64,000 nucleotides of DNA from Rhodobacter sp. NTK016B (GTDB lineage Bacteria > Pseudomonadota > Alphaproteobacteria > Rhodobacterales > Rhodobacteraceae): the NCBI RefSeq assembly GCF_017303295.1, contig NZ_JAFKOK010000011.1, positions 1 through 64,000 on the forward strand. Reading direction: 5' to 3'. The translations under genes and the position numbers were made by a program. Below, one piece after another: positions 14,662-44,829 of this stretch; positions within the stretch are counted from its first letter, which is position 1, and every line of letters begins with the position of its first letter. The notes beneath the pieces are model-generated. The model had not been told where the DNA came from and searched no databases. It saw nothing but the letters and a program-made list of their open reading frames with translations.

Positions 14662-14690
14662 TTGCCTCATATCAGGGGTGCTGATACGAA
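14662..14690 (+). promoter_or_regulatory. Candidate promoter with inverted repeat for the thioesterase-like gene
   Basis: TTGCCT (14662-14667) and TACGAA (14685-14690) have 17-base spacing. TATCAG-GGGTG-CTGATA (14670-14686) is a 6-bp inverted repeat filling the spacer, a typical repressor position. The box matches are modest. Confidence 0.4.
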
Positions 14691-22227: not shown

Positions 22228-23700
22228 ATGACCATGTCGACAAAGGCGGGCGCATCGCCCGAGGGTGCACACCGATACGTGGCGCCGCAGCTTCTGATTG
22301 ACGGGGAGTGGATCGGCGCCGATGCGCGCGAGACCTCGCCGGTGATCAACCCGGCCACCGGGCGCGCGGTGGGTCATGTCCCCCATGCCAGTGCCGCCGA
22401 TCTGGACCGCGCGCTGGCTGCGGCCGAGCGTGAATTTCCCCGCTGGCGCAAGACCAGTCCGCGCGAACGCGGGCGCATCTTGAAGCGCGCCGCTGATCTG
22501 CTGCACGACCGCGGGGAAGAGGTCGCGCGCCTGGCCACGCTGGAAATGGGCAAGCCGCTGGCTGAATCGCGTATCGAGCTGCATGTCGCCTGCGAGGAAC
22601 TGGAATGGTTCGCCGAAGAGGCGCGTCGCACCTGGGGCCGCGTGCCGCCGGGCCGCTTTGGCGAGACGCGCTTTTCGGTCCACAAACAGCCGGTCGGGCC
22701 TGCCGCCGGGTTCTCGGCCTGGAACTTTCCCATCGGCAATGCCTGCCGCAAGCTGGGCACCGCGCTCGCCGCGGGGTGCCCGATGATCTACAAACCCGGC
22801 GAGGAAGCGCCCGCCGCCGCCCTTGCCGTCGCCCGCTGTCTGGTCGAGGCCGGTGTGCCAGCCGGGGTGATCGCGGTGGTTTTCGGCGTGCCCGATACGA
22901 TCTCGCGCCATCTGCTGGCCTCACCGATCATCCGCAAGATCTCGTTCACCGGATCGGTGCCGGTGGGCAAGCATCTGGTGAAACTGGCCGCCGACACGAT
23001 GAAACGCACGACGATGGAACTGGGCGGCCATGCGCCGGTTCTGGTCTTCGACGATGCCGACCAGCAGGCGGTGCTGGACCAGTCCGTGCAGCGCAAGTAC
23101 CGCAATAGCGGGCAGGTCTGCGTGTCGCCCACGCGGTTCTATGTGCAGGACGCCTCGTATGACGCTTTCTGCGACGGCTTTGCCGAGCGGGCAAAGCGCA
23201 TCCGCGTCGGCGACGGGCTGGACGCCGAAACCGGGATGGGCCCGATGGTTCATGCGCGTCGCCGCGACGCGATCGAGGCGCTTGTTCAGGATGCCCTCGA
23301 CCACGGGGCAAGATTGCTGGCGGGGGGCGAGCGTCTTGGCAATGAGGGGTTTTTCTATGCCCCCACCGTGCTGGCCGATGTCCCCGACAGCGCCCGCATC
23401 ATGTCCGAAGAGCCGTTCGGTCCCGTCGCCGTGCTGAACCGGTTCAGCGGCGTGGATGACGCGGTCGAAAAGGCCAATCGCCTGCCCTACGGTCTGGCCG
23501 CCTATGCCTTTTCGCAGAATGTTGCCACGATCCATCGGCTTGCCGACGATATCGAGGCCGGAATGCTGGGCATCAATTCGTTCAACATCTCCATGCCCGA
23601 GGTGCCGTTCGGCGGCGTCAAGGAAAGCGGCATGGGGTCCGAAGTCGGGGTCGAGGGGCTGGACGCCTATCTGGTCACCAAGACCCTCAGCATCACCTGA
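22228..23700 (+). CDS. NAD(P)-dependent aldehyde dehydrogenase (mandelate-type operon)
   Basis: A 490-residue aldehyde dehydrogenase of the succinate-semialdehyde/benzaldehyde group. The general base lies in TTMELGGHAP, and the catalytic cysteine is C298 in NSGQVCVSP. The C-terminal EVPFGGVKESGMG is typical of this subgroup. The ATG at 22228 follows GGGAGG; the frame is open upstream to 22018 through the promoter, which is not coding. It is first in an operon with a benzoylformate-decarboxylase-like enzyme and two hydroxyacid dehydrogenases, so an aromatic aldehyde is the likely substrate. A MarR-type operator lies in its promoter. Confidence 0.94.
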   Translation: MTMSTKAGASPEGAHRYVAPQLLIDGEWIGADARETSPVINPATGRAVGHVPHASAADLDRALAAAEREFPRWRKTSPRERGRILKRAADLLHDRGEEVARLATLEMGKPLAESRIELHVACEELEWFAEEARRTWGRVPPGRFGETRFSVHKQPVGPAAGFSAWNFPIGNACRKLGTALAAGCPMIYKPGEEAPAAALAVARCLVEAGVPAGVIAVVFGVPDTISRHLLASPIIRKISFTGSVPVGKHLVKLAADTMKRTTMELGGHAPVLVFDDADQQAVLDQSVQRKYRNSGQVCVSPTRFYVQDASYDAFCDGFAERAKRIRVGDGLDAETGMGPMVHARRRDAIEALVQDALDHGARLLAGGERLGNEGFFYAPTVLADVPDSARIMSEEPFGPVAVLNRFSGVDDAVEKANRLPYGLAAYAFSQNVATIHRLADDIEAGMLGINSFNISMPEVPFGGVKESGMGSEVGVEGLDAYLVTKTLSIT

Positions 23701-23717
23701 CCGGGAAAGAGAGCGCC

Positions 23718-25418
23718 ATGAAATACCAGCCCCCCGAAGGCGTGATCGCCGCCGAAGACGTCCTGAGCCGGATGAAAGCCGCCGGGGTCGATGTCCTGTT
23801 TGCCAATGGCGGCACCGATTTCCCCTCGATCATCGAGGCCTATGCCCGCGCGCCTGAAACCGGCATCGATATGCCCGAGCCGGTCATCATCACCCATGAA
23901 GGCGTCGCGCTGGGCATGGCGCATGGCTATTACCTGATGGCGGGCAAGCCCGCCGGGGTCATCGTGCATGTGAATGTGGGCCTTGCCAATTCGGTGATGG
24001 GCATCGTCAACGCCGCGTCCGAACAGATCCCGCTGCTGATGTGCTCGGGCCGGACCCCGCTGACCGAAAACAACCGCTTCGGCAGCCGATCCAGCCCGAT
24101 CCACTGGGGGCAGGAGATGCGCGATCAGGCGGCGATGATCCGCGAGGTCGTCAAATGGGATTATGAACTGCGCTATCCCGAACAGGCCGGAGCCGTCATA
24201 GACCGCGCGATGAGCATCGCCCTGAGCGAGCCCTGCGGCCCGGTCTATGTCAGCCTGCCGCGCGAAGTGCTGGCCGAGGCCGTGCCGGGATCGCAGGCGC
24301 AGTCCAAGCCTTCGGTCGCGCCGACGCGTTATGCCGCCGCCGATGCCGCGCAGGTCGCCCATGTCGCCGACCTGCTGGCCAAGGCTAAGCGCCCGGTGAT
24401 CATCACGCAGAGCCCCGATCATCATTCCGGGTTCGAGCCGCTGGCCAGCATGGCCGAGAAACACGCGCTTCCTGTGGTGGAATACTGGTCGACCCGGCAG
24501 GCGCTTTCGACCCGGCATCCGATGCATGCCGGGCGCGACCCCACGCCCTGGGTCAGGGATGCCGACGTGATCGTCGCCGTCAACGCGATGGTGCCGTGGG
24601 TGTCGGACCATGTCTCGCCGCCCGAAGGCTGCGTGGTGGTGGGCCTTGGTCCCGACCCGCAATTCCGCGCCGTGCCGATGCGCAGTTTCGACATGGATAT
24701 CTCGCTGGGTGGCGGCACGCAGGCGACGCTGCAGGCTTTGTCTGACGCCCTCGATGCGGCGGCGACCGGCGACGATCATGCCGAACGGCGCGCGCGCGTC
24801 GCCGCGTTCCGCGATGAGCAGGCACAGGCCGTGGCGAAGCGGGTGCAGCAGGGCAAAGGGCGACCGATGAACCCGGCCTATGTCAGTCAGTGCCTGAGCG
24901 ATGCGGCGGATGACAACACGACCTTCTTTAACGAACTGGGTTTCGATCCGACGGTGATGGATTTCGACGCGCCGAAGACCTATTTCTCGTCGCCGCTGTC
25001 GGGCGGGCTGGGCTGGGGTCTGACCGCGGCCCTCGGCGCGCAGCTGGCCGATCGCTCACGGCAGGTGATCGCCTGCATTGGCGACGGATCGTATGTCTTT
25101 GCCAATCCGGTCGCCTGCCATCAGACCGCCGCCTCGCACGGTTTGCCGCTGCTGACGGTGGTGTTCAACAACGGCATCTGGAACGCGGTGCGGCGATCGA
25201 CGCTGTACATGTATCCCGATGGCAAGGCGGCCACCGCCAACACCATGCCGATCACCCAGCTGGCAGCGATGCCGGATCATGCCGCTATCGCCCGCGCCCA
25301 CGGCGCCCATGCCGAGCGGGTCGAGGATGGCGCCGATCTGCCCGACGCCATCGCGCGCGCTCTGGCCGCGACGCGCAACGGGCAGCAGGCTTTGCTGGAC
25401 GTGGTGGTCAGCTACTGA
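23718..25418 (+). CDS. ThDP-dependent 2-oxoacid decarboxylase, benzoylformate-decarboxylase-like
   Basis: A 566-residue thiamine diphosphate enzyme. E61 (in ITHEGVAL) is the cofactor-activating glutamate. H84 in IVHVNVGLAN sits where benzoylformate decarboxylase has its active-site histidine. The ThDP-binding motif runs from GDGS (455-458) to the NN pair (484-485). It is annotated in genomes as acetolactate synthase-like, but the operon partners (aldehyde dehydrogenase, S- and D-type hydroxyacid dehydrogenases) point to decarboxylation of an aryl glyoxylate to an aldehyde. AAAGAGAG precedes the ATG. It is 17 bases after the aldehyde dehydrogenase gene. Confidence 0.9.
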   Translation: MKYQPPEGVIAAEDVLSRMKAAGVDVLFANGGTDFPSIIEAYARAPETGIDMPEPVIITHEGVALGMAHGYYLMAGKPAGVIVHVNVGLANSVMGIVNAASEQIPLLMCSGRTPLTENNRFGSRSSPIHWGQEMRDQAAMIREVVKWDYELRYPEQAGAVIDRAMSIALSEPCGPVYVSLPREVLAEAVPGSQAQSKPSVAPTRYAAADAAQVAHVADLLAKAKRPVIITQSPDHHSGFEPLASMAEKHALPVVEYWSTRQALSTRHPMHAGRDPTPWVRDADVIVAVNAMVPWVSDHVSPPEGCVVVGLGPDPQFRAVPMRSFDMDISLGGGTQATLQALSDALDAAATGDDHAERRARVAAFRDEQAQAVAKRVQQGKGRPMNPAYVSQCLSDAADDNTTFFNELGFDPTVMDFDAPKTYFSSPLSGGLGWGLTAALGAQLADRSRQVIACIGDGSYVFANPVACHQTAASHGLPLLTVVFNNGIWNAVRRSTLYMYPDGKAATANTMPITQLAAMPDHAAIARAHGAHAERVEDGADLPDAIARALAATRNGQQALLDVVVSY

Positions 25419-25420
25419 TC

Positions 25421-26632
25421 ATGGACAAGGACGCCGCCCGCCTCGCCCGTTTGCGCCGCAGCCATCCGATGCTGGGCGATCTGGAACGGCGCGCGGCGCG
25501 GCGGCTGCCGCGCTTTGCCTATGATTTCATTCAGGGCGGCGCCGGGGACGAAAGCGGGCTGACCCGAAACCGTGCGGCCCTGCAATCCGTGCAGATCGTG
25601 CCGCGATACGGCGTGAACGTTGGCGCGATCGATACCTCGGCCACCCTGTTCGGCCATCGCTATGCCGCGCCGGTAGGGATCTCGCCCATCGGTTTCGACG
25701 GCATCATGTGGCCCGGCGCGACGCGGTTATTCGCCGAGGCGGCGCAACGCGCGACGATCCCCTATCTGGTCGGCACCCTGGCGACAGAAACCATCGAGAC
25801 GGTGGTGTCGCTGGCGCCGGATGTGACGTGGTTTCAACTCTATCCCCTGCCTGCCGAGGATCATCGCGTCAGTTTCGACCTGACCGACCGGGCGATGCGC
25901 GCCGGGGCGAAGGTTCTGGTGGCGACGCTCGATGTGCCCACCCGCACCAAGCGCCCACGCGATCTGCGCAACGGTTTCGTCATGCCCTTTCGGCTGTCGG
26001 CGGGGATGCTGGGGCAGATGATGGGGGCGCTGCCGTGGTCGGTCGCTCTGGCCAGACGCGGGCGGCCGAACTTTGCCAATATGCTGACCTATAGCGGCGG
26101 CGGTTACGAGCCGACCGCGCGCTTCGTGCAGCAGAATGTCGGCGGCGGTTTTGAGTGGGAGGTTCTGGCCCGCCTGCGCGACCGCTGGACCCGGCCGATG
26201 ATGCTGAAGGGCGTGATGCATCCCGCCGACGCCGAAAAGGCGCTATCGCTGGGGATCGACGGGGTGGTCGTGTCCAACCACGGCGGCCGGCAATTCGACG
26301 CCGCGCCCGCCAGCGTGGACATGCTGCCCGAGATCGTGCGCGTGATGGATGGGCGGGGCGTCGTGATGCTGGACAGCGGCGTGACGGGCGGGGTCGACAC
26401 CCTGCGCGCGCTGGCGCTGGGGGCGCAGGGCGTCTTTGCCGGGCGCGCCTTCATGCTGGCGCTGGCGGCGCTGGGCGATATCGGCGCGCGGCACATGACC
26501 GACGCCTTTATGGAAGAGCTGCGCAACGCGATGGCGCAAAGCGGCATCACCGGCGTGGAACAGGCCACCGGCCTGCAGACCCGCCATCCCGGTGCATGGA
26601 CCCGCGCCGATTTCGGAGGCCCGGATGAATGA
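25421..26632 (+). CDS. FMN-dependent alpha-hydroxyacid oxidase/dehydrogenase (mandelate/lactate type)
   Basis: A 403-residue member of the L-lactate/(S)-mandelate/glycolate oxidase family. The signature SNHGGRQFD places the catalytic H287 with R290. The FMN phosphate region reads LDSGVTGGVDTLRALALGAQGVFAGRAF. It turns (S)-2-hydroxyacids into 2-oxoacids. It starts 3 bases after the stop of the ThDP decarboxylase, which would consume its product, so (S)-mandelate or a ring-substituted mandelate is the most economical substrate. Whether it reduces quinone or oxygen cannot be decided; no membrane-insertion segment is obvious. Confidence 0.93.
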   Translation: MDKDAARLARLRRSHPMLGDLERRAARRLPRFAYDFIQGGAGDESGLTRNRAALQSVQIVPRYGVNVGAIDTSATLFGHRYAAPVGISPIGFDGIMWPGATRLFAEAAQRATIPYLVGTLATETIETVVSLAPDVTWFQLYPLPAEDHRVSFDLTDRAMRAGAKVLVATLDVPTRTKRPRDLRNGFVMPFRLSAGMLGQMMGALPWSVALARRGRPNFANMLTYSGGGYEPTARFVQQNVGGGFEWEVLARLRDRWTRPMMLKGVMHPADAEKALSLGIDGVVVSNHGGRQFDAAPASVDMLPEIVRVMDGRGVVMLDSGVTGGVDTLRALALGAQGVFAGRAFMLALAALGDIGARHMTDAFMEELRNAMAQSGITGVEQATGLQTRHPGAWTRADFGGPDE

Positions 26633-27998
26633 GACCGCGATCAAGGCGCTGCAACAGGTGCTGGGCGACAGGCTGTCGCTGAACCCTGCTTTGCGTGAGC
26701 ATCACAGCCATGACATGTCGCGCCAGCCAGCCCATCTGCCCGATGCCGTGGTCTTCGCCGAAAGCGAAGAGGATGTCGTGCAGACCCTGAAGCTGTGCCA
26801 CGAACACGGCGTTCCGGTCACGCCCTTCGGCGCCGGATCCTCGATGGAGGGGCACACGATCCCGGTGCGGGGCGGCGTCTCGCTGGACATGACCCGGATG
26901 AACCGCATCCTTGCCGTTCATGCCGAGGATTTCGACGCCGTGGTCGAAGCGGGCGTCACGCGCAAGCAGCTCAACGCGCATCTGCGCGACGTGGGGCTGA
27001 TGTTTCCGGTCGATCCCGGCGCCGACGCCAGCCTTGGGGGCATGGCCTCGACCCGGGCCAGTGGCACCACCGCCGTGCGCTACGGCACGATGCGTGAGAA
27101 TGTCATCGCGTTGCGGGTGGTGACACCCACCGGCGAGGTCATCACGACCGGGCGGCGGGTCAAGAAATCGTCGACCGGCTATGACCTGACAAAGCTCTTC
27201 GTGGGCGCCGAGGGGACACTGGGGGTGATCACGCAGGTAACCGTCCGCTTGCATCCGGTGCCCGAGGTGATCGCCTCGGCGATTTGCAGCTTTGCCACCA
27301 TGGCGGGCGCCGTACAGAGCGTGGTCGAGACGCTGCAAAGCGGCATCCCGGTCGCGCGGATCGAATTTCTGGACGAGGTCGCGGTCGATGCCGCCAATGC
27401 CCATTCCGGGCTGGGTCTGAAACGCCAGCCGACGCTGTTTCTGGAATTCCACGGCAGCGCCCGCTGGGTTCAGGAACAATCGGAAACCGTCCGCGCGTTG
27501 GCGGCGGAGAATGGCGGCGAGGATTTCGACTGGGCCACCAATCCCGAGGACCGCACCCGGCTGTGGACGGCCCGGCACGAGACGCTCTATTCCAACCAGT
27601 CGCTGCGTCCGGGCTGCAAGACCTTCACCACCGATGTTTGTGTGCCCGTCTCGCGCCTGCCCGAGGCCATTCTGGCGGCCCGCGCGGATCTGGATGGCTC
27701 GTTCATCATCGGCAAGATCATCGGCCATGTCGGCGACGGGAATTTCCATGTGGGCTATCTGATCAAGCCCGAGATCCCCGAGGAACTGGCCGAAGCCGAA
27801 CGTTTGGCCGAGCGCCTGTACCAGCGCACGATGGATATGGAGGGCACGTTCAGCGGCGAGCACGGGATCGGCATTTCAAAGCTGAAATACCTGCGGCGCG
27901 AACATGGCGCAGCCGCAGTCGAGATGATGAAGGCGCTGAAGGCGGCGGTCGATCCCAAGGGCATCATGAACCCCGGCAAGCTGGGGCAGGCGGGCTAG
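26625..27998 (+). CDS. FAD-binding D-2-hydroxyacid dehydrogenase (GlcD/D-lactate dehydrogenase family)
   Basis: A 457-residue PCMH-type flavoprotein. The FAD-binding region includes VTPFGAGSSMEGHTIP and GADASLGGMASTRASGTTAVRYGT. The C-terminal cap has HVGDGNFH and SGEHGIG, the histidine-containing motifs of D-lactate and D-2-hydroxyglutarate dehydrogenases. The ATG at 26625 follows GGAGG and overlaps the preceding stop by 8 bases. Next to the S-type FMN enzyme it would give the operon access to both enantiomers of a mandelate-like acid. The 3' end overlaps the convergent acyl-CoA dehydrogenase gene by 4 bases. Confidence 0.93.
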   Translation: MNETAIKALQQVLGDRLSLNPALREHHSHDMSRQPAHLPDAVVFAESEEDVVQTLKLCHEHGVPVTPFGAGSSMEGHTIPVRGGVSLDMTRMNRILAVHAEDFDAVVEAGVTRKQLNAHLRDVGLMFPVDPGADASLGGMASTRASGTTAVRYGTMRENVIALRVVTPTGEVITTGRRVKKSSTGYDLTKLFVGAEGTLGVITQVTVRLHPVPEVIASAICSFATMAGAVQSVVETLQSGIPVARIEFLDEVAVDAANAHSGLGLKRQPTLFLEFHGSARWVQEQSETVRALAAENGGEDFDWATNPEDRTRLWTARHETLYSNQSLRPGCKTFTTDVCVPVSRLPEAILAARADLDGSFIIGKIIGHVGDGNFHVGYLIKPEIPEELAEAERLAERLYQRTMDMEGTFSGEHGIGISKLKYLRREHGAAAVEMMKALKAAVDPKGIMNPGKLGQAG

Positions 27999-30346
27999 CC
28001 CAGCAATTCGCGCGCGATGATTTCCAGCTGGATCTCATTGCTGCCGCCGAAGATGCTCTGCGATCTGGCATTGAGATAGATCGCAGGCGCAACCAGCCGG
28101 TCCTCGGCCACTGCGTCCTGCTGCGGCAGATCGTGCAGGGGCCGCTCCGGATACCAGCGCAAAGCCTCGGGGCCGAGGATCTGCGCGCCCAGTTCGGTGA
28201 TTGCCTGCCGGATGCGGCTGCGTTCGATCTTCATGACCGAGGACGGCACGGCGCCGGGATTGCCGCCCGATTGCACGGCGGACAGCGCGGTCAGTTCCAG
28301 CATGTCGTTGGCGTCGATATCGGTGCCGATCTCGGCGAAGCGCGCCAGAAACAGTGGATCGTCCAGCGCCCGTGTGCCATCCGGCCCCGGCGTGTCGGCC
28401 ATGCGGTGCAGCCGGGCATAGAGGGCACGCAGCAGACCACCGGCGAACGAGCCGCCGCGCTCGAATTCCAGCAGGTACTTGGCGATGGTCCAGCCCTGTC
28501 CCTCATCGCCGATGCGGTCGGCTACGGGAACGTGGACATCGTCAAAGAATACCTGGTTGAATTCATGCGTGCCGCAGATCGAGATGATCGGCTTCAGCGT
28601 GATCCCCGGCGCTTTCATGTCGATCAGCAGAAAGGTGATGCCCTGCTGCTTGCGCCCTGTGTCATCGGTGCGCACCAGCGCGAACATGCGCGTTGCGTGG
28701 TGGCCCAGCGTGGACCAGATTTTCGATCCGTTCAGGACGTAATGGTCGCCGTCCTGCACGGCCTTGGTGGACAGCGACGCAAGGTCCGAGCCCGAACCCG
28801 GCTCGCTATAGCCCTGCGCCCACAAATCCTGTCCCGACAGGATGCGCGGCAGGTAGAAGGCCTTCTGAGCCTCGGTTCCGAAATGCATCAGCACGGGCGC
28901 GATCATCTTCAGGCTGGCGCCCCGGAAATGCGGCTCGCCGGCGCGTTCGCTTTCCTGATCGAAGATATAGCGCTGCGTCAGCGTCCAGCCGGGCCCGCCA
29001 TGCTCCGGCGGCCACGAGGGCGCGGCCCAGCCCTTTTGCGCCAGCTTTGCCTGCCACGGCAGGCCGATGCGGGGATCGGCGAGGAAACTGGGATTCAGGC
29101 GTTCGGCGCGTTTGGTGTCTTCGGAAAGCTGCTCTTTCAGGAAATCCCGAACCTCGTCCCGGAAGGCCGCATCTTCGGCGCTCATCGTCAGGTTGAGCGT
29201 TTCGTCCGACGCCTCGCCGGGGCGCAGCAGAGAGCCTGCCAGAACCTCGGGCCGGGTGATCACGCTGGCATAGCGTTTGAGGTGCAGCGCGGTGCTGCCC
29301 CACAGGTTTTCAAAGGTATAGAGCCGCTTGAACCATGTGCCGATAGGCATTTCTTCGGAGAAACCCATCGCGCCGTGCAGCTGGATTGCTTCCTGCGCGA
29401 CATGGCGCGACAGGCGGCCAATCTTGGCGCGGGCACCGGAAACGCCGCGGATGCGGGTCTCGGCGTCGCCCTCGGCGCTCAGCGCTGCCAGCAGGACCGC
29501 GCCGCGCGCTTCCTCGACCTTGACGGCCATCTCGGCCATGCGGTGGCGCAGGGCCTGAAATTTTGCCAAGGGCTGGCCGAACTGAACGCGCTCCTGCGTG
29601 TAGGCGACGGTGGCGTCCAGCAGGGCGGCCATCGCGCCTACCGCATCGGCGCATTGCGCCGCATTCGCACGATCGAGGCAGGCGAGAACGGCCTTGGTCG
29701 CATCCCCCGCGCCAAGGCGTTCGGCTTGAACCCGGTCCAGAACCAGATCCGCCGCTTTTCCCCCGTCGATCGTGTCCGCCTGCGAAAGCGTCAGACCCTC
29801 GGCGCCGGGGCGCAGCACGAAGACGCCCAGTCCGTCCCCGGTCTGTGCGGTGACCAGCAGGATATCGGCTGCATGCCCGTCCAGCACCAACGCCTTGTGG
29901 CCGGTGACTTCCCAGCCGCCGGCAACCGGACGGGCCGTTGTCGCCACCTGCATCAGCGCATCGCTGCGCTCGCCATGGGCAAGCGCCGGGCGCGAGGTCC
30001 CCTCGGCCAGCGGGGGCAAGAGGGCCGCCGCCTGTTCGGGCGTCCCCAAAGCCGCGATGACGCCGCCGGCCAGCACCACGCATGCGATCCAGCGCTCCAT
30101 CACCGCCGCGCGGCCCAGTTCCTCGGCCAGCACCGCAACCTCGACCGGGCCGCAGCCCAGCCCGCCATGTTCCTCGGGCACGGGCAGTGCCAGCCATCCC
30201 AGATCGGCGAAGCGCGCCCATGTCTTGGGGTCAAACCCGCCCCCGGCCGCGATCCGCCGTCTTTCGGCGAAACCATAGGTATCCCCCAGCACACGCCGCG
30301 CGGATTCCCGCAGGGCGCGCTGTTCTTCGGTCAGCGTCAGACGCAT
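27995..30346 (-). CDS. Fused double acyl-CoA dehydrogenase
   Basis: A 783-residue protein made of two complete acyl-CoA dehydrogenase modules in tandem: residues 1-375 (with RVQFGQPLAKFQALRHRMAEM and AIQLHGAMGFSEE) and about 390-783 (with GYSEPGSGSDLASL, GSKIWSTLGHHA and IFGGSNEIQLEIIARELLG). The second module keeps the SEPGSGSDL flavin/substrate loop and the terminal GGSNEI motif; the first lacks a clear SEPG loop. This resembles the alpha-beta pairs of side-chain dehydrogenases (for example FadE-type heterotetramers), here fused. It abuts the HCHL gene stop (no gap) and is last in the CoA operon, so it may desaturate an arylpropanoyl-CoA to the cinnamoyl-CoA used by HCHL. Confidence 0.92.
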   Translation of the reverse strand: MRLTLTEEQRALRESARRVLGDTYGFAERRRIAAGGGFDPKTWARFADLGWLALPVPEEHGGLGCGPVEVAVLAEELGRAAVMERWIACVVLAGGVIAALGTPEQAAALLPPLAEGTSRPALAHGERSDALMQVATTARPVAGGWEVTGHKALVLDGHAADILLVTAQTGDGLGVFVLRPGAEGLTLSQADTIDGGKAADLVLDRVQAERLGAGDATKAVLACLDRANAAQCADAVGAMAALLDATVAYTQERVQFGQPLAKFQALRHRMAEMAVKVEEARGAVLLAALSAEGDAETRIRGVSGARAKIGRLSRHVAQEAIQLHGAMGFSEEMPIGTWFKRLYTFENLWGSTALHLKRYASVITRPEVLAGSLLRPGEASDETLNLTMSAEDAAFRDEVRDFLKEQLSEDTKRAERLNPSFLADPRIGLPWQAKLAQKGWAAPSWPPEHGGPGWTLTQRYIFDQESERAGEPHFRGASLKMIAPVLMHFGTEAQKAFYLPRILSGQDLWAQGYSEPGSGSDLASLSTKAVQDGDHYVLNGSKIWSTLGHHATRMFALVRTDDTGRKQQGITFLLIDMKAPGITLKPIISICGTHEFNQVFFDDVHVPVADRIGDEGQGWTIAKYLLEFERGGSFAGGLLRALYARLHRMADTPGPDGTRALDDPLFLARFAEIGTDIDANDMLELTALSAVQSGGNPGAVPSSVMKIERSRIRQAITELGAQILGPEALRWYPERPLHDLPQQDAVAEDRLVAPAIYLNARSQSIFGGSNEIQLEIIARELLG

Positions 30347-31183
30347 TCAGCCCTCGCGCTGATAGGTTCCGTGGCCGGGACGATAGGTCTTGTCGTCGAG
30401 AAACTGCTTGAGCCCCTCTTCGCGCCCGCGCTCGGGATCCACAAAGGTGGTCTGGTCAGCCTTGGCTGTCAGGTACTCGGCGGCCTGTTCCCAATCCATG
30501 TAGCGGGCGTATTTATAGGCCAGCCGCGCCTGCCGCAGAACGGTCGGGTTCTTGGCCAGCAGCACTTTGGCCAGCTCGACCGTGCGGGCGCGCAGTTGAT
30601 CGGCGGGGACGGCCTCGTTGATGAGGCCCAGCTCTTCGGCCTTGCGCCCGTCGAATTTCTCGCCGGTCATGACGTAGTACATCGCCTTGCGATCGTTCAA
30701 CAGCGTGGAGATCGCCTTGGATACCACGCCGCCGGGGATCACGCCCCAGTTGATTTCTGACAGCCCGAAGGTCGCGTCTTCCGAGGCGATGGCGAGATCG
30801 CAGCAGATCAGTGGCGTGAAGGCGCCGCCGAAGCACCAGCCATTGACCATGGCGATAGTCGGTTTGGCATAATGCATCAGCGTCCGCCATTGCCAGGCCC
30901 GGGTCGAGCGATAGGCCCGCATCCGCTCGACATCGGACACGCCGTCGGTGGCGCGGAAAAAGTCCTTCAGGTCCATCCCCGCCGAGAATGCGTCGCCCAC
31001 GCCGGTCAGCACGATCACGCCGCAACGGTCGTCCACTTCCAGCGCGTCAAGCACCTTGTTCATGTCCTCGGCCAGCCCGACCGACATGGCGTTGCGCTTG
31101 TCCGGGCGGTTCAGCTGGACCCAGGCGATGCCGTCTTCGAACTCGACGAGGACATTGTCGCCCCAGCTTTGCGTGCTTGTCAT
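30347..31183 (-). CDS. Hydroxycinnamoyl-CoA hydratase-lyase (HCHL) 1
   Basis: A 278-residue crotonase of the p-hydroxycinnamoyl-CoA hydratase/lyase (feruloyl-CoA hydratase-lyase) family. It hydrates a hydroxycinnamoyl-CoA and splits it to a hydroxybenzaldehyde plus acetyl-CoA. Key positions of the Pseudomonas enzyme are kept: M70 in SAGMDL, E143 in GLSEINWG and a tyrosine at 237 in EQAAEYLTAK; Ser123 is replaced by Thr. The C-terminal FLDDKTYRPG is typical. It lies between an aldehyde dehydrogenase (which would take the aldehyde) and the fused acyl-CoA dehydrogenase. Confidence 0.93.
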   Translation of the reverse strand: MTSTQSWGDNVLVEFEDGIAWVQLNRPDKRNAMSVGLAEDMNKVLDALEVDDRCGVIVLTGVGDAFSAGMDLKDFFRATDGVSDVERMRAYRSTRAWQWRTLMHYAKPTIAMVNGWCFGGAFTPLICCDLAIASEDATFGLSEINWGVIPGGVVSKAISTLLNDRKAMYYVMTGEKFDGRKAEELGLINEAVPADQLRARTVELAKVLLAKNPTVLRQARLAYKYARYMDWEQAAEYLTAKADQTTFVDPERGREEGLKQFLDDKTYRPGHGTYQREG

Positions 31184-31194
31184 GGTGTGGCCTT

Positions 31195-32634
31195 TCAGGA
31201 TTGGCTTATGGTCTTGGTTACCAGATAGGCGTCCATGCCCTCGGTCCCGCCTTCGCTGCCGTAGCCGCTTTGCTTGACGCCGCCGAAGGGGGTTTCGGGC
31301 ATGTTGATGAAGGGGTTATTGATGCCGACCATCCCGGCTTCCAGCGCATCGCCCAGATCGGCGGCAATGCGGGTCGAGCGGGTAAAGGCATAGGCGGCAA
31401 GGCCAAAGGGCAGGCGGTTGGCGCGGGCGATCGCCTCGTCAAAAGTGGCGAAGGACGAGGTCACCGCGACCGGGCCAAAGGGTTCCTCGATCATGATCCG
31501 CGCGGTGTCGGGGACGTTGGCCAGCACGGTGGGCGCAAAGAAATAGCCCCGGTTGCCCAAAGCCTCGCCGCCCTGCCGGATCTCGGCCCCGTGGCTGACG
31601 GCATCGGCGACCAGACGCTCCATCGCCCCCACGCGCCGGTCATTGGCGAGCGGCCCCATCGTCACGCCGTCGTCCAGACCGTTGCCGGTCCTGATCGCGG
31701 CAGCGGCCTTGGTGAAGCCCTCGACGAAGCGATCATGGACCGCTTCCTGCACGAAGAACCGCGTGGGCGAGACGCAGACCTGCCCGGCATTGCGGTACTT
31801 GGCCCCGGCCATCACGGCGATGGCGGCATCGACATCGGCATCGTCGAAGATCAGCACCGGGGCATGGCCGCCCAGTTCCATCGTCGCACGCTTGACCCCG
31901 GCCTTGGCCGCCAGAACGGCCAGATGCTGGCCCACGCCGGTCGAGCCGGTAAAGGTGATCTTGCGGATTTCCGGTGCGGCGATCAGGTGTTCGGAGACTT
32001 CCGAGGGCACGCCGTAGACAACGTTCAGCACGCCCTTGGGCAGACCCGCATCCTGCAGCGCGCGCGCCAGTTCCAAAACGCTGGCGGGCGTTTCCTCGGA
32101 TGGTTTGATGACCATCGTGCAGCCCGTCGCCAGCGCCGCCGAGATCTTGCGCGCCGGGATCACGGCGGGGAAGTTCCACGGCGTGAAGGCGGCAACCGGC
32201 CCCACGGGCTCTTTCGTCACCATCCAGCGGACACCGGGCATGCGCGCGGGCACGATCCGCCCATAGGTGCGGCGCCCTTCATCGGCGGTGTAGTCGAAGA
32301 TATCGGCCGAGATGAACACTTCCTGCAGCGCTTCGGCCAGCGGCTTGCCCTGTTCCAACGTCATCCGGCGGGCGATGCCGTTGGCGCGTTCGCGCAGCAG
32401 GTCGGCGGCCTTGCGGATCAGCTTGGCGCGGTCAAAGGCGGGCACCTTGCGCCATTCGGCAAAGGCGCGCGCGGCGGCGGCGCTGGCGTGATCAAGGTCG
32501 GCTTTCGTGGCATGGGGCAGGGCGGCGATGGCCTCGCCCGTGGCCGGGTTCAGCACGTCTTCGGTCGTGCGCCCCTCGGGCCCCAGCCATTCGCCATCGA
32601 TGAACAGGTGCAAATCGCCGTAACTGCGATCCAT
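31195..32634 (-). CDS. Aldehyde dehydrogenase (hydroxycinnamate-type operon; vanillin dehydrogenase-like role)
   Basis: A 479-residue NAD(P)-dependent aldehyde dehydrogenase, paralogous to the one at 22228. The catalytic cysteine is C287 in AGQVCVSP, and the C-terminal motif is ETPFGGVKQSGYG. The ATG at 32634 follows GGGAG; an ATG at 32658 would overlap the upstream gene. Placed between an acyl-CoA synthetase and HCHL, it probably oxidises the hydroxybenzaldehyde (vanillin-like) released by HCHL to the benzoate. Both aldehyde dehydrogenases belong to the succinate-semialdehyde-like subfamily, so substrate overlap is likely. Confidence 0.93.
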   Translation of the reverse strand: MDRSYGDLHLFIDGEWLGPEGRTTEDVLNPATGEAIAALPHATKADLDHASAAAARAFAEWRKVPAFDRAKLIRKAADLLRERANGIARRMTLEQGKPLAEALQEVFISADIFDYTADEGRRTYGRIVPARMPGVRWMVTKEPVGPVAAFTPWNFPAVIPARKISAALATGCTMVIKPSEETPASVLELARALQDAGLPKGVLNVVYGVPSEVSEHLIAAPEIRKITFTGSTGVGQHLAVLAAKAGVKRATMELGGHAPVLIFDDADVDAAIAVMAGAKYRNAGQVCVSPTRFFVQEAVHDRFVEGFTKAAAAIRTGNGLDDGVTMGPLANDRRVGAMERLVADAVSHGAEIRQGGEALGNRGYFFAPTVLANVPDTARIMIEEPFGPVAVTSSFATFDEAIARANRLPFGLAAYAFTRSTRIAADLGDALEAGMVGINNPFINMPETPFGGVKQSGYGSEGGTEGMDAYLVTKTISQS

Positions 32635-32644
32635 GTCGCTCTCC

Positions 32645-34783
32645 CTATTGCGTGACAATCAGCGCGTCGAGCGCGATCACCCCCTCGCCCTCGGCATAGA
32701 CGACCAGAGGGTTGATATCGATTTCCGCGATCTGCGGATTGGCCCGCATCAGCGCTCCCAGCGCCACCACCGCATCGGCCACGGCCGAAACATCGCGCGC
32801 GGGCTGTCCCCGGAATGGTTCCAGCAGCTTCGCGGCTTTCAGCTTGTGGATTTCCGCTACGGCACGGGCGTGGCTGATATCGGGGGGCATCAGGCGCGAA
32901 TCCTTCAGCACCTCGATCCACACGCCGCCCAGCCCGACCAGCAGCACGGGCCCCCAATCGGGATCGCGCCGCGCGCCGACCACCAGCTCCAGCCCCGGCG
33001 CGGCCATTTCCTCGACCAGCACGCCGTCCAGCGCCACGCCCGGCGCGGCTTTGGCCAGATTGGCGTGCAGCGTGTCCCAGCCGTCCTTTAGCGCGGCCTC
33101 GTCGCGCAGGTTGATGATCACCGCCCCGGCGTCGGATTTGTGGCTCAGCGCCTTGGCCTGCGCCTTGATCACCACGGGATAGCCAATCCGCCCGGCCACG
33201 CGCAGGGCGCCGTCCAGATCCTGCACCAGCGCGCCGGCCGGGCAGCGCAGGCCCAGATCCCTGAGGATCGCTTTTCCCGCATGCTCGGTCAGCGCGCCGC
33301 CCGCCGGAAGGTCCAGCGAGGGCGCCTGCGCCTCGCTGCGGTCTTCAAGCGCGGCGAGGGCGTTGGCATAGTCCGAGACCACCTTCATCGCCCGCATGGC
33401 GCGCTCGGGGGACCGGAAAAAGGGAATGCCGCTGTCGCGCACATCACGCATGAACTGCGCGTCCAACGCATAATCGTCGCCGATGATGCAGAACAGGATC
33501 GGTTTCTTTGCCTGTTGGTACACCGGCACGAGGTAATCGGATTTCTTGACCTGCATGACCGGCGATCCCCCGGCATGGGCGCTGAGGATCATACCGATCC
33601 CGGGATCCTTCAGCATCGCTTCCGCCGAGGTGCCGAAAATCCCCGGGTTGGCGAACCCGGTCGTGCCCACGTCGAAGGGGTTGTCGACATGCACATACTC
33701 GGGAACCTGCGTGGTCAGCTCGGCTTTGACCTCGGGCGACAGGGGAGCCAGTTCCAGACCCACTTTCTCGCAGAAATCAAAGGCCAGGCCCCGGATCGCG
33801 CCGGAATTGGTAACGATCCCGGCTTTGCCCGGCGGCGGCACGGGGAAGCGCACCAGAATGGCCAGCACGTCGAACATCTCGTCCAGCGTATCGACGACGA
33901 CCACCGCCTCGTTTCGGGCGGCGGCCTGCATCACCGCGTGATTGCCCGCCAGCGCGCCGGTATGCGATTCCGCCGCTTTGCGCCCGCGCTCGGACGAGCC
34001 GGGATGCAGCATGACCACGGGCTTGCCCTGCGCGCGCGCCTTTCGCGCGACAGACAGGAAGCGGGCCGGGTCGCGGACCTGTTCGACATAGACGGCAATC
34101 GCGGCGATGCCGTCATCGCCAAGGCTATAGTCGATGAAATCCTCGGCGCTCAGCAGCGCCTCGTTCCCGGTGGCGACGACATGGGCAATCGGGATTTCGC
34201 GCGCCTGCATGGCGAAGCGGATATTGGCCGCCGTCGCGCCGCTTTGCGCGATGATCGCCACGCGACCGCCGCTGCCCGCATTGGTTTTGGTCACCGGCTC
34301 GAAGGTCAGCGGGATGCCGTCGACGTAATTGGTATAGCCCATGCAGTTGGGGCCCAGCAGCGCAACACCGGCGTCACGGCACAGATCGGCCAGTTCTTCC
34401 TGCTGGCGGCGACCGTCCTCGCTCGCCTCGGCGAAGCCCGAGGTGTAGATGACAATTGCGCCGACCCCCTGCGCGATACAGTCGATGACCGAGGCGCGGA
34501 TCGCCGCGAAAGGGACGATCAGCACGGCCACGTCGATACCGCGGGGCAGATCGGCGATGGATTTGACGCAGGGCCGGCCGTTGATGTTGTCGCGCGAGCG
34601 GCTGACCAGATGGATCTCGCCCGAATAGCCGAAATCCTCAAGATTCGCGAGCACACCGCCGCCGATCGAGCCGCGTTCGGGCGAAGCGCCCAGAATGGCG
34701 ATCGAGCGCGGGCGCAACAGCCGGGCAACCGTGTCTGAACCGCCGGTCGCTGCGTGCGCCGGCGAAGCCTGAGGCTGCGTCAT
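32645..34783 (-). CDS. ADP-forming acyl-CoA synthetase (acetate-CoA ligase family)
   Basis: A 712-residue protein with the domain order of ADP-forming acyl-CoA synthetases: CoA-binding Rossmann domain (residues 20-120, RSIAILGASPERGSIGG), succinyl-CoA-ligase-like domains (about 140-460, with the phospho-histidine candidate in ESHTGALAGNHAV), then an ATP-grasp domain (about 490-712, GYPVVIKAQAKALSHKSDAG). It makes a CoA thioester with release of ADP and phosphate. The ATG at 34783 is preferred because GGAGGA lies in the right place; an ATG at 34801 overlaps that site. It is first of a four-gene operon with aldehyde dehydrogenase, HCHL and acyl-CoA dehydrogenase, so a cinnamic or phenylpropanoic acid is the expected substrate. 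Confidence 0.92.
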   Translation of the reverse strand: MTQPQASPAHAATGGSDTVARLLRPRSIAILGASPERGSIGGGVLANLEDFGYSGEIHLVSRSRDNINGRPCVKSIADLPRGIDVAVLIVPFAAIRASVIDCIAQGVGAIVIYTSGFAEASEDGRRQQEELADLCRDAGVALLGPNCMGYTNYVDGIPLTFEPVTKTNAGSGGRVAIIAQSGATAANIRFAMQAREIPIAHVVATGNEALLSAEDFIDYSLGDDGIAAIAVYVEQVRDPARFLSVARKARAQGKPVVMLHPGSSERGRKAAESHTGALAGNHAVMQAAARNEAVVVVDTLDEMFDVLAILVRFPVPPPGKAGIVTNSGAIRGLAFDFCEKVGLELAPLSPEVKAELTTQVPEYVHVDNPFDVGTTGFANPGIFGTSAEAMLKDPGIGMILSAHAGGSPVMQVKKSDYLVPVYQQAKKPILFCIIGDDYALDAQFMRDVRDSGIPFFRSPERAMRAMKVVSDYANALAALEDRSEAQAPSLDLPAGGALTEHAGKAILRDLGLRCPAGALVQDLDGALRVAGRIGYPVVIKAQAKALSHKSDAGAVIINLRDEAALKDGWDTLHANLAKAAPGVALDGVLVEEMAAPGLELVVGARRDPDWGPVLLVGLGGVWIEVLKDSRLMPPDISHARAVAEIHKLKAAKLLEPFRGQPARDVSAVADAVVALGALMRANPQIAEIDINPLVVYAEGEGVIALDALIVTQ

Positions 34784-34835
34784 GTTTCGAATTCCTCCCA
34801 TCGTGGCGGGCTGCCCCTGTCGGGGTGTCCACCGC

Positions 34836-34878
34836 GGCTCCTTGATGATTATTTATCAGGGAGCCGTATATGTGTCAA
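34836..34878 (-). promoter_or_regulatory. Promoter and overlapping 11-bp inverted repeat of the CoA operon
   Basis: Read leftward, TTGACA (34878-34873), 17 bases, then TAAATA (34855-34850) form a plausible sigma-70-type promoter for the operon starting at 34783. GGCTCCTTGAT (34836-34846) and ATCAGGGAGCC (34855-34865) form an 11-bp inverted repeat with one mismatch and an 8-base spacer straddling the -10 box. That position fits a repressor operator. As RNA it could also end transcripts from the upstream SDR gene, but no T-run follows. Confidence 0.6.
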
Positions 34879-39294: not shown

Positions 39295-40140
39295 TCAGGC
39301 GTCGCGGTCGTATGCGCCGAGGCCCGGCTTGTACTTCTTTTCGTCGATGAACTGCGACATGCCTTTTTCGGCACCGCGATCGCGGTCGCGGAACGTCGTC
39401 GAATCCGCTTTTGCCATCAGGTATTCCAGCGATTGCTCCCAACCCATCTGGCGCACATGGTGATAGGCAGATTTCGCCGCGCGCAGCACATGCGGGTTCT
39501 TCTTTTTCAGGGTTTCGGCCAGCTTGGTCACTTCGGCGCGCAGCTGCTCTTGCGGCACCGCCTTGTTGACCAGCCGCATTTCGGCGGCCTGAATGCCGGT
39601 GAAGGTCTCGCCGGTCATGATGTAGTACATCGCATCGCGCTGCGGGATCACCATCGACACCGATTTGGTGACGATACCGGCGGGGATGATGCCCCAATTG
39701 ATTTCCGACAGCCCGAAGGTCGCATCCTCGGCGGCGATGGCCAGATCGCAGCCCACAAGCACCTGAAACGCGCCGCCGAAGCACCAGCCATTGACCATGG
39801 CGATGGTCGGCTTGCGGTAATGCATCAGCCGCCGCCATTGCCAGGCGGCATTGTCGGCAAACAGCCGCTCGCGTTCGTGCGGCGGCCAAGTTTCGGTTTC
39901 GCGGAAATACTCCTTCAGATCCTGCCCCGCCGAAAACGAGTCGCCCGCGCCGGTGATCACCAGCACCTCGGCGTCGGGGTCGCCCTCCATAGCGTTCAGT
40001 ACCGCGGTCATCTCGCGCACGATGCCGGGATTGATCGCATTGCGCTTGTCGGGACGGTTCAGGGTGATCCAGGCGATCCCGTCCTTGACCTCGGTGGTTA
40101 CGCATTCTCCCCAACCCGGGCCGCTTGCCGTGTCGCTCAT
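39295..40140 (-). CDS. Hydroxycinnamoyl-CoA hydratase-lyase (HCHL)-like 2
   Basis: A 281-residue paralogue of the enzyme at 30347, with the same NGWCFGGAF, GLSEINWGIIPAG and FIDEKKYKPG blocks. The catalytic glutamate is E147, but the residue matching Met70 of the Pseudomonas enzyme is Gln (AGQDLKEYF) and the Ser123 position is Gln (FGGAFQVLVG). The active site therefore differs from copy 1 and may accept another ring substitution or side chain. It is divergently transcribed from the marR gene with the shared operator between them, the arrangement typical of hydroxycinnamate genes controlled by a CoA-ester-sensing MarR repressor. Confidence 0.92.
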   Translation of the reverse strand: MSDTASGPGWGECVTTEVKDGIAWITLNRPDKRNAINPGIVREMTAVLNAMEGDPDAEVLVITGAGDSFSAGQDLKEYFRETETWPPHERERLFADNAAWQWRRLMHYRKPTIAMVNGWCFGGAFQVLVGCDLAIAAEDATFGLSEINWGIIPAGIVTKSVSMVIPQRDAMYYIMTGETFTGIQAAEMRLVNKAVPQEQLRAEVTKLAETLKKKNPHVLRAAKSAYHHVRQMGWEQSLEYLMAKADSTTFRDRDRGAEKGMSQFIDEKKYKPGLGAYDRDA

Positions 40141-40181: not shown

Positions 40182-40198
40182 TATAAGGCAACCTTACA
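40182..40198. promoter_or_regulatory. MarR-type operator between HCHL 2 and marR
   Basis: TATAAGG-CAA-CCTTACA is a 7-bp inverted repeat with one mismatch and a 3-base spacer, ending 6 bases before the marR start codon and 41 bases from the HCHL start. A repressor bound here would block both divergent genes. The same arms occur inverted at 22155-22171 before the aldehyde dehydrogenase operon. Confidence 0.75.
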
Positions 40199-40204
40199 TA
40201 GTCA

Positions 40205-40660
40205 ATGTCGGCATCAACGCGAAGCAAGCGCAGCCAAGGCGCGCGTCCCCGGTTGATCTATCTGGTCAACAACCTCAATCTTCTGGTGCGCCGGATGCTG
40301 GACGAGCGGTTGAAGCCGCATAATCTGGGCGGGCTGCAATACACGATCCTGACCCTGATCCGCGACCGCGACGGCATTTCCTCGGCCGAATTGTCCCGGC
40401 GGTTCTTCGTCACCCCGCAGACGATGAATGAATCGGTCACGGCGCTGGAACGGCGCGGCCTGATCGCGCGCAAGGAAAGCGAAGCGAACCGCCGGATCCT
40501 GATCGCCCGCGTGCTGCCCGAGGGTCTGGCCCTGCTCGAAACCTGCGACAAGATCGCGGACGAGGTCGAGGCCGAGGTTTTTGCCGACCTTCCGGCAGAC
40601 AAGCAGGACGTGCTGCACGATCTGCTGCGCGACCGTATCGGCCGGCTCATGCAGGGCTAG
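40205..40660 (+). CDS. MarR family transcriptional regulator
   Basis: A 151-residue winged-helix repressor. The recognition region is SSAELSRRFFVTPQTMNESVTALERRGLIARK (about residues 58-90), followed by the wing (NRRILIARVLPEG) and a C-terminal dimerisation helix. It is divergent from an HCHL gene, as are the known hydroxycinnamate regulators CouR, FerR/FerC and HcaR, which are released from DNA by hydroxycinnamoyl-CoA. The operator touches its own start, so it is probably autoregulated. The ATG at 40205 lies 7 bases after the operator, leaving almost no leader, so the transcript may be leaderless or nearly so. Confidence 0.93.
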   Translation: MSASTRSKRSQGARPRLIYLVNNLNLLVRRMLDERLKPHNLGGLQYTILTLIRDRDGISSAELSRRFFVTPQTMNESVTALERRGLIARKESEANRRILIARVLPEGLALLETCDKIADEVEAEVFADLPADKQDVLHDLLRDRIGRLMQG

Positions 40661-43608: not shown

Positions 43609-43654
43609 TATGTAAGAATAACGTTCGTTACTGTCAAATCCGATTGGATCGGAT
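43609..43654 (-). promoter_or_regulatory. Promoter and operators of the flavin hydroxylase gene
   Basis: Leftward TTGACA (43637-43632), 17 bases, TACATA (43614-43609). The spacer holds TAACG-TT-CGTTA (43619-43630), a perfect 5-bp inverted repeat. Just upstream lies ATCCGAT-TGG-ATCGGAT (43638-43654), a perfect 7-bp repeat that also overlaps the stop codon of the upstream hydrolase gene and could act as its weak terminator. Confidence 0.6.
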
Positions 43655-44829
43655 TAACGCGTGAATCCCCGGGCTTCGCACCAGCGGCGCACGGTCTCGA
43701 TGCATTCCGCCAGCAATTCGGGCTGGCCAAGGTAGTAATGCGTCGCGCCGTCCAGCTCGACATAGCTCTGGTCCTTGGTCGCCAGCGCGGCGCGAATGGC
43801 CGGGTTATGCGTGGCGGGCACGGCATCGTCTGCACCGTTGACGATCTGCAGAACCGGGGTGCGAGTGATGCGCGCGGCGTTCATCGGCCCCTTGGCGTTG
43901 GACAGGTCATAGCTCCACTGGCTGAGCCACGAGCGCAACGTGGTGAACCGGGCCAGCCCGACGGGGCCGACATTCACGGTCAGCGGATGGCCCATATAGG
44001 TCCATTCCGGCTTGCGCCCGTTGGGGTCGATGCTGGGATCCAGCCAGCGCACGTCGCACATCGTGCGGTGGACGACAAAGGCGCGCTCCATCTCCGGCGT
44101 GTCGCGCGCTTTCAGCTCGGCCAGCAGATCCTGTGCCCAGGCAGTGATACGGCGGTTGCGTGCGCGCTGCGCCTCGCGGAAGCGGGCGATGAAGTCGGGC
44201 GTATAGGGCGGCTGATGCGGGCAGTCGGGCGAATAGATGTCGAATTCGGTGTCGCGCTGATCCGGGTTCAGCTCATCCATGACCGAGGGGTCGAGCCATT
44301 CGGTCATGGTCTCGGCCCGGCTCAGATGGGCCGCGATGAAGATCACGCCGTCGGCGGGGGTCAGCCCGGCCGCCGTCAGATCTGCGGGGTCGCCGGCGGG
44401 GGTATGGGTGATCGTCGGGCTTTCGGCCTGCGCCTGATAGAACAGCGACAGCGACCCGCCGCCCGACCAGCCGACCAGCACGACCTTTTCATAGCCCAGC
44501 ACCTCTTTCGCGTGGCGGATCCACTGGCCCAGATCCATCGCCACCTTTTCCATGATCAGCGCGGAATCGTTGCGCGCATAGCGGCTGGCGGCGCAAAGCA
44601 CGTGATAGCCGGCATCGGCCAGCGCCATCGGCATCGGCAGCAATTGCAGGGTCGAGGCGGGGTGCATGAAGATCAGCACCGTCTTGGAAGGTGCGTCGCC
44701 GGACAGCAGCTGACCCTCCAGATTGACCATGCCGGAATTGCCGGCAAAGCCGTAAACCTCGGTCGCTTTCACGATTTCAGGGAACGAGACGATCTGCAGT
44801 CTGCGCTGCCAGGGGCTCTTTGCCGGCAT
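43654..44829 (-). CDS. Alpha/beta hydrolase
   Basis: A 391-residue alpha/beta hydrolase, larger than a simple lipase-type enzyme. The nucleophile elbow is VGWSGGGS, the acid lies in NGADDAVP, and the histidine in DGATHYYLGQPE. A long insertion (about residues 150-290) forms a lid. Enzymes of this size in aromatic clusters include esterases and ring-cleavage-product hydrolases. It has its own promoter (TTGACC at 44898-44893 and CATAGT read leftward) and an inverted repeat; the flavin hydroxylase gene downstream also has its own promoter. Confidence 0.87.
   Translation of the reverse strand: MPAKSPWQRRLQIVSFPEIVKATEVYGFAGNSGMVNLEGQLLSGDAPSKTVLIFMHPASTLQLLPMPMALADAGYHVLCAASRYARNDSALIMEKVAMDLGQWIRHAKEVLGYEKVVLVGWSGGGSLSLFYQAQAESPTITHTPAGDPADLTAAGLTPADGVIFIAAHLSRAETMTEWLDPSVMDELNPDQRDTEFDIYSPDCPHQPPYTPDFIARFREAQRARNRRITAWAQDLLAELKARDTPEMERAFVVHRTMCDVRWLDPSIDPNGRKPEWTYMGHPLTVNVGPVGLARFTTLRSWLSQWSYDLSNAKGPMNAARITRTPVLQIVNGADDAVPATHNPAIRAALATKDQSYVELDGATHYYLGQPELLAECIETVRRWCEARGFTR

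Follow-up and report, generated by a model that had tools for sequence, protein, structure and literature searches.

The available portions of two sources (PMC10458429, PMC5487221) describe HcaR of Acinetobacter baylyi ADP1 as a MarR repressor of the genes for non-β-oxidative hydroxycinnamate degradation (CoA ligase, hydratase/lyase) with a CoA thioester as inducer, and FerC of Sphingobium sp. SYK-6 as a MarR repressor of the ferulate operon that is released by hydroxycinnamoyl-CoA. FerR and CouR of R. palustris are likewise reported there to answer to hydroxycinnamoyl-CoA esters. CouR of Rhodococcus jostii RHA1 is, in the accessible part of its description (PMC4737184), a MarR repressor whose operators are spread over several promoters of a single catabolic regulon, and from these it is released by p-coumaroyl-CoA.

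The window (the whole 64-kb stretch of DNA that was analysed) contains a MarR gene that is divergent from a gene for a p-hydroxycinnamoyl-CoA hydratase/lyase (HCHL) scoring above the curated cut-off. Its protein shows moderate sequence likeness to HcaR (E 1.4e-13), which is likened by protein and not by operator, and a weak match to CouR of RHA1 (E 0.00099), whereas FerC is likened by description alone. With regard to differences, no hydroxyacid operon is named in the HcaR regulon in the available portions of its descriptions, and CouR of RHA1 serves a β-oxidative pathway through a box (cATTGA-N5-TCAATg) that overlaps the −35 region, according to the part of PMC4737184 at hand, while the repeat in the window reads TATMAGG-N3-CCTKATA. 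The MarR of the window probably acts in the manner of HcaR or FerC. In a literature search that covered few subscription papers and many texts in part, no description of this operator or of a link to a 2-hydroxyacid operon was met.

Composition of the locus

The genes discussed below are the following:
40205–40660, plus strand: MarR-family regulator, probable repressor at four sites (PF01047/PF12802; AlphaFold model)
39295–40140, minus strand: HCHL 2, p-hydroxycinnamoyl-CoA hydratase/lyase (NF006588, 407.6 bits, cut-off 276)
32645–34801, minus strand: ADP-forming acyl-CoA ligase, first gene of the operon 34801–27995
31195–32658, minus strand: aldehyde dehydrogenase (ALDH) of the CoA-ligase operon
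30347–31183, minus strand: HCHL 1 (NF006588, 416.1 bits, cut-off 276)
27995–30346, minus strand: two acyl-CoA dehydrogenases in a single reading frame
22228–23700, plus strand: ALDHm, aldehyde dehydrogenase (Pfam Aldedh), first gene of the 2-hydroxyacid operon
23718–25418, plus strand: ThDP-dependent enzyme, probable 2-oxoacid decarboxylase (NF006203, 649.8 bits, cut-off 456)
25421–26632, plus strand: FMN-dependent L-2-hydroxyacid dehydrogenase (Pfam FMN_dh)
26592–27998, plus strand: FAD-dependent D-2-hydroxyacid dehydrogenase, mitochondrial D-lactate dehydrogenase type (8jdc, 498 bits; start codon uncertain)
14754–15671, plus strand: thioesterase-like (4HBT_2) gene behind operator 4

The winged-helix domain of the MarR protein is recognized (PF01047, 45.7 bits, cut-off 24.6), and its AlphaFold model (pLDDT 89.2) has the MarR fold. 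HcaR of Acinetobacter is its best solved relative by sequence (54 bits) and reaches a TM-score by query length of 0.79 against the model (4rgr); the Foldseek list, in which HcaR and CouR stand among many MarR proteins, is not discriminating. Close relatives of this MarR are rare: at E ≤ 1e-20, they were found in 4 of 295 family genomes, the window's own included. In a genus mate (G222), no match to this MarR reaches E ≤ 1e-20 and the best ThDP match is 50% identical, so the island looks accessory.

On the hydroxycinnamate side, HCHL 2 and HCHL 1 are 58% identical. The fused pair at 27995–30346 resembles pimeloyl-CoA dehydrogenase large and small subunits, albeit under the cut-offs of those models, and its counterparts in Aminobacter (L117) and Chelativorans (L106) are two separate stretches. 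Elsewhere in the window, 16401–18755 encodes the large subunit of a molybdenum hydroxylase, beside which genes for a hydrolase and an enoyl-CoA hydratase stand in place of the usual partner subunits; molybdenum hydroxylase genes of this type have an operator of their own in three Rhizobiales (L115, L116, and L117). Regarding ring cleavage, homoprotocatechuate 2,3-dioxygenase HpaD scored above its cut-off in four of nine island genomes, own included, and protocatechuate 3,4-dioxygenase beta subunit PcaH in six of nine, with no gene of the own genome above the PcaH cut-off; these markers do not decide.

The operon at 22228–27998 had been called mandelate-type in the earlier note. The mandelate pathway consists of benzoylformate decarboxylase, (S)-mandelate dehydrogenase, and benzaldehyde dehydrogenase, and its steps, from 2-hydroxyacid through 2-oxoacid and aldehyde to acid, likely recur in that order in the window, where either enantiomer of a 2-hydroxyacid would be converted to the 2-oxoacid, the aldehyde, and finally the acid. 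The ThDP enzyme does not support the label itself: it falls far below the benzoylformate decarboxylase cut-off (NF005485, 170.3 bits, cut-off 493), and that identity was dropped. The operon differs further by having both an L- and a D-type dehydrogenase. Among the models shown, the ThDP enzyme passes only one, named 'thiamine pyrophosphate-requiring protein' (NF006203); among solved chains, 2-hydroxyacyl-CoA lyase (105 bits) lies slightly above benzoylformate decarboxylase (96 bits), and the structure prediction is poor (pLDDT 47.9, from four sequences). For the FMN dehydrogenase, L-lactate oxidase chains outscore (S)-mandelate dehydrogenase among the solved relatives. The top models for ALDHm are of the succinate-semialdehyde type, all under cut-off; it shares 56% identity with the ALDH of the CoA-ligase operon, a likeness that fits an aromatic aldehyde substrate and does not prove one. 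The route would presumably have no CoA step.

Candidate operators and promoter layout

Two repeats with identical arms, as described in the earlier note, were confirmed: TATAAGGCAACCTTACA at 40182–40198 on the plus strand, and TATAAGGAAACCTTACA on the minus strand of 22155–22171, with both 7-base arms in common. Two further promoters of the window carry the site, at 34854 and 14670, which had both been absent from that note; the proposed link was thus not private to two loci. The candidate operators and the −35-like boxes before them are listed here:
40182–40198, no strand assigned: operator 1, between HCHL 2 (minus) and marR (plus)
22155–22171, no strand assigned: operator 2, preceding the ALDH–ThDP–hydroxyacid dehydrogenase operon, 56 bp before the ATG at 22228
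34854–34870, read on the minus strand as TATACGG CTC CCTGATA: operator 3, before the CoA-ligase operon
14670–14686, TATCAGG GGT GCTGATA: operator 4, before the thioesterase-like gene, with weaker evidence
40200–40205, minus strand: TTGACT of HCHL 2
22148–22153: TTGACT of ALDHm
34873–34878, minus strand: TTGACA of the CoA-ligase operon
14662–14667: TTGCCT of the thioesterase-like gene

Read toward the gene, the promoters are TTGACT-A-TGTAAGG-TTG-CCTTATA for HCHL 2, TTGACT-T-TGTAAGG-TTT-CCTTATA for ALDHm, TTGACA-CA-TATACGG-CTC-CCTGATA for the CoA ligase, and TTGCCT-CA-TATCAGG-GGT-GCTGATA for the thioesterase-like gene. The distance between TTGAC box and operator is identical at the HCHL and ALDHm promoters, and on its other side, operator 1 ends 6 bp before the marR ATG. 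All four repeats follow a −35-like box and lie where spacer and −10 region would fall, the usual place for a repressor that excludes polymerase. A reading of the repeats as terminator hairpins was rejected, as no T run follows the repeat at 40182 or 22155 and the repeats are placed behind a TTGAC box.

Allowing up to three mismatches, TATAAGGN3CCTTACA gave seven matches in the window, which correspond to four places, three of them matched on both strands; dinucleotide shuffles gave an expectation of 0.29 and a maximum of two. In the 4.84-Mb genome, TRTAAGGN3CCTTAYA with up to one mismatch was found at 40182 and 22155 only, compared to one place for the reversed-pattern control. This count is not striking by itself; that both matches lie in promoters of one 64-kb stretch is striking. 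Looser patterns were not enriched by count in the own genome, neither TATAAGGN3CCTTATA at up to three mismatches (12 places vs. 49 for the control) nor TATMAGGN3CCTKATA at up to two (7 vs. 9). They are telling by position only, not by number: 4 of those 12 places fall into the window, which makes up 1.3% of the genome, and so do all four places that match TATMAGGN3CCTKATA with up to one mismatch.

For scoring, an operator matrix was built from 17 marR-promoter sites, omitting the L044 copy (identical to two others) and the L064 site; its scores are circular at the marR promoters used to build it, and not at other promoters. A leave-out matrix from 15 marR-promoter sites of other genomes, with the sites of the window and of its closest relative excluded, ranked 40182 and 22155 equally at the top of the window (23.4 bits each), followed by 14670 (19.9 bits), 34854 (19.0 bits), and a fifth position at 11.8 bits. 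Among 60 simulated sequences of 64 kb (first-order Markov), the best matrix score was 15.5 bits, in a comparison restricted to positions whose arm cores have GG or CC. The CoA-ligase site scores at least 18.4 bits in six of six loci of the window's own type (the window itself, L037, and L042–L045).

Distribution in related genomes

A contig scan with recognition-helix peptides yielded 37 related marR loci, so that the invariance of the helix is partly by design. A tree of 27 of the 38 proteins (window plus 37 loci) without outgroup was used for relatedness only. In 15 of the 37 loci, HCHL and marR are divergent genes, and all 15 have a site with up to two mismatches between the two. In the 22 loci with other contexts, a site with up to one mismatch lies upstream of marR in three, and the best candidates in the remaining 19 have three to six mismatches. 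Islands much like that of the window occur in Pararhodobacter aggregans, the MAG of L043, LNNU 3342, and Wenxinia. Two Mesorhizobium MAGs and Aminobacter sp. J41 have their marR (47–50% identical) adjacent to and convergent with genes of the 2-hydroxyacid side, namely a run of amidohydrolase, D-hydroxyacid dehydrogenase, ThDP, and ALDH genes. A plasmid of Sagittula stellata E-37 (L112) encodes a MarR of 43% identity near an island-like CoA ligase, molybdenum hydroxylase, enoyl-CoA hydratase, and ALDH; its top operator-like site reaches just 8.3 bits.

The ThDP enzyme co-occurs with this MarR. ThDP orthologues (E ≤ 1e-190) were found in 8 of the 23 MarR-bearing genomes searched (of 37 MarR loci), compared to 1 of 385 genomes of the class, namely the window's own (Fisher p about 3e-11 without the own genome, ignoring kinship). 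Within the family, ThDP is present in 3 of 394 genomes, all of which encode MarR: the own genome, that of Wenxinia, and a third with the match at the coordinates it has in LNNU 3342. Each of six plasmid records with a ThDP match of at least 65% also has a MarR match of at least 50%; all six are Neorhizobium.

Conservation of the motif in relatives was examined in 10 genomes by searching for a site of at least 13 bits within 250 bp upstream of each island gene. Tblastn matches of less than 40% identity or beginning after query residue 40 were set aside, gene starts were extrapolated from the match, and the better of two matches per genome was kept; since the genomes are related, the resulting counts are not independent. 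The site precedes ALDHm in all nine genomes with a readable promoter, i.e., the own genome, LNNU 3342, P. aggregans, the MAG of L043/L104, the two Mesorhizobium MAGs, Aminobacter, Neorhizobium petrolearium, and N. galegae; this count omits the Chelativorans MAG, whose contig begins inside ThDP, and L044. At every such locus, a TTGAC box facing ALDHm begins 7–8 nt before the operator. The sites of both Neorhizobium genomes are weak (14.0 bits), and in the Mesorhizobium MAGs, a 24.0-bit site near ALDHm faces the thioesterase gene, while the one facing ALDHm scores 18.8 bits. The arms read TAAGG in the own genome and LNNU 3342; in Pararhodobacter and Rhizobiales, one arm or both have CAGG.

Further genes share the site to varying degrees. 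HCHL 2 has it in eight of eight genomes, five of which supplied that site to the matrix, and the CoA ligase in five of five genomes where it is the first gene and in none of the three Rhizobiales where it stands behind HCHL 2. For the thioesterase-like gene, the site was found in six of nine genomes (in LNNU 3342 it lies 290 bp away, beyond the 250 bp counted), and for the XdhA-like gene in five of nine, two of which share the ALDHm site. Amidohydrolase (three of seven), FAD monooxygenase (three of eight), and the NMT1-like transporter gene (one of two) follow; the window's own copy of the XdhA-like gene has none, and its amidohydrolase, FAD monooxygenase, and NMT1-like copies have no site of at least 13 bits within 250 bp. 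Operators precede amidohydrolase and FAD monooxygenase genes in the Rhizobiales loci L062, L065, and L105. The marR promoter carries the site in five of eight genomes, with none at the marR promoter itself in the Mesorhizobium MAGs and Aminobacter; in Neorhizobium, a search up to 10 kb from marR met no HCHL. No site precedes any of the later operon genes in the 10 genomes (ThDP, LldD, GlcD, ECH0, HCHL1, ALDHv, and acyl-CoA dehydrogenase), nor LLM1, LLM2, the hydrolase genes abh and 43k, SDR, TctC, and UbiD. As some of the latter may start operons, control of the whole island was rejected, and the predicted regulon would comprise several operons; a shared regulator of this scope is well supported by the comparison.

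Genome-wide, TRTMAGGN3CCTKAYA with up to one mismatch occurs at 59 places in nine relatives, compared to 19 for the reversed control. These places concentrate on the island stretch in the Mesorhizobium MAGs (six of six and six of eight), Aminobacter, and LNNU 3342 (six of seven each), and less so in P. aggregans (four of eight), the MAG of L043 (three of five), Wenxinia (three of six), and N. petrolearium (two of nine). In Chelativorans, where the reversed control exceeds the real pattern (six vs. three), two of three sites lie on the island, and the third has the same letters as the site upstream of its marR in L064.

One exception was found. The earlier note had named the absence of the site upstream of an orthologous operon in a genome that retains the MarR as a finding against the link, and this is the case in one genome, Wenxinia marina, compared to nine of nine readable ALDHm promoters with the site. 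Wenxinia keeps MarR, HCHL, and the ThDP operon, in which ThDP is the first gene found; the sequence upstream of it contains a TATGCACTTGAC stretch and no operator, and ALDHm was not found within the 60 kb examined (L036–L038). As the ALDH that normally stands behind the operator is missing, we read the site as lost with that gene, and in our judgement, its absence is no evidence of an idle site elsewhere.

Regulatory model and alternatives

We infer that MarR would bind and repress at these sites. As a local repressor, the protein encoded at 40205–40660 would recognize the 7-3-7 inverted repeat TATMAGGN3CCTKATA, for which inverted-repeat candidates were found in its putative target promoters, and would occupy positions immediately downstream of the −35 region in several promoters, so that RNA polymerase is blocked; promoter occupation is the simplest reading of repression. 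Predicted targets are HCHL 2 and marR itself (40182), the operon of CoA ligase, ALDH, HCHL 1, and acyl-CoA dehydrogenase (34854), the operon of ALDHm, ThDP enzyme, and L- and D-2-hydroxyacid dehydrogenases (22155), and, probably, the thioesterase-like gene (14670). The CoA ligase would activate a hydroxycinnamic acid, and the CoA thioester would then bind MarR and release it, switching the operons on together. On balance, we favour this model in full, inducer and four promoters included.

That one MarR serves both loci, whatever its inducer, appears highly probable. This part of the earlier proposal gains from the sites, the box distance, the single match to this MarR in the own genome, and the Rhizobiales loci with marR beside the 2-hydroxyacid genes; Wenxinia speaks against it, and the link extends to further promoters. 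If a different regulator with a similar operator read the 22155 site, the loci would be controlled separately, and the Neorhizobium islands, where a GntR gene and, in one case, a further MarR gene lie close to the ThDP operon, would fit such an arrangement. Only 13 of the 34 first-look MarR candidates of the own genome were scored, which also leaves room for it. However, one match to this MarR was found in the own genome at E ≤ 1e-20, the arms and the box distance agree between the 40182 and 22155 promoters, and marR adjoins 2-hydroxyacid genes in three Rhizobiales loci, and we consider separate control very improbable. A repeat shared by chance, or left without function by a promoter duplication, would explain why the likeness of the two promoters extends past the repeat, as expected of a copied promoter, and would agree with its absence in Wenxinia and with loose-match counts that do not exceed controls in the own genome. 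Such an origin is hard to reconcile with a site in all nine readable ALDHm promoters and with arms that drift at a constant distance from the TTGAC box, and it can be regarded as extremely improbable.

The nature of the inducer is a separate matter. By analogy with HcaR, FerC, and CouR, it would be hydroxycinnamoyl-CoA, and a CoA ester of some kind is a reasonably probable inducer. MarR could also govern both loci in response to a free aromatic acid or aldehyde common to both branches, with no CoA-ester signal. In the available portions of the sources, HcaR, the best solved relative of our MarR by sequence, is described for ADP1 as appearing to bind unesterified ligand (PMC5487221), and DesR as answering to vanillate and syringate (PMC10458429). 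The same portions, together with that of PMC4737184, report responses to CoA thioesters for the HcaR, FerC, FerR, and CouR proteins, and the Foldseek list does not decide the matter; a free ligand seems unlikely to us.

An aromatic-acid island found in Rhodobacterales and Rhizobiales, of which we met no earlier description, is thereby assigned a predicted regulon whose operators are specified by sequence and position. If shown, the induction of a CoA-free route for one compound by the CoA thioester of another would be an instructive wiring. Co-regulation also gives a clue to the 2-hydroxyacid substrate, which cells probably encounter along with hydroxycinnamates. A speculative and rather improbable reading is that the island degrades natural esters of hydroxycinnamic acids and aryl 2-hydroxyacids (rosmarinic-acid-like): an alpha/beta hydrolase would cut the ester, and hydroxycinnamoyl-CoA formed from one half would switch on the CoA-free route by which the other is degraded. 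The enzymes for both halves would then be induced by a metabolite derived from only one of them. In the papers met on rosmarinic acid catabolism, the titles and abstract openings describe no bacterial gene cluster for it. The conserved protein encoded at 43654–44829 (72–89% identical in relatives) has no Pfam match at 1e-5, and it contains a GWSGGG stretch that resembles a nucleophile elbow; it is therefore probably an alpha/beta hydrolase and could be an esterase of the island.
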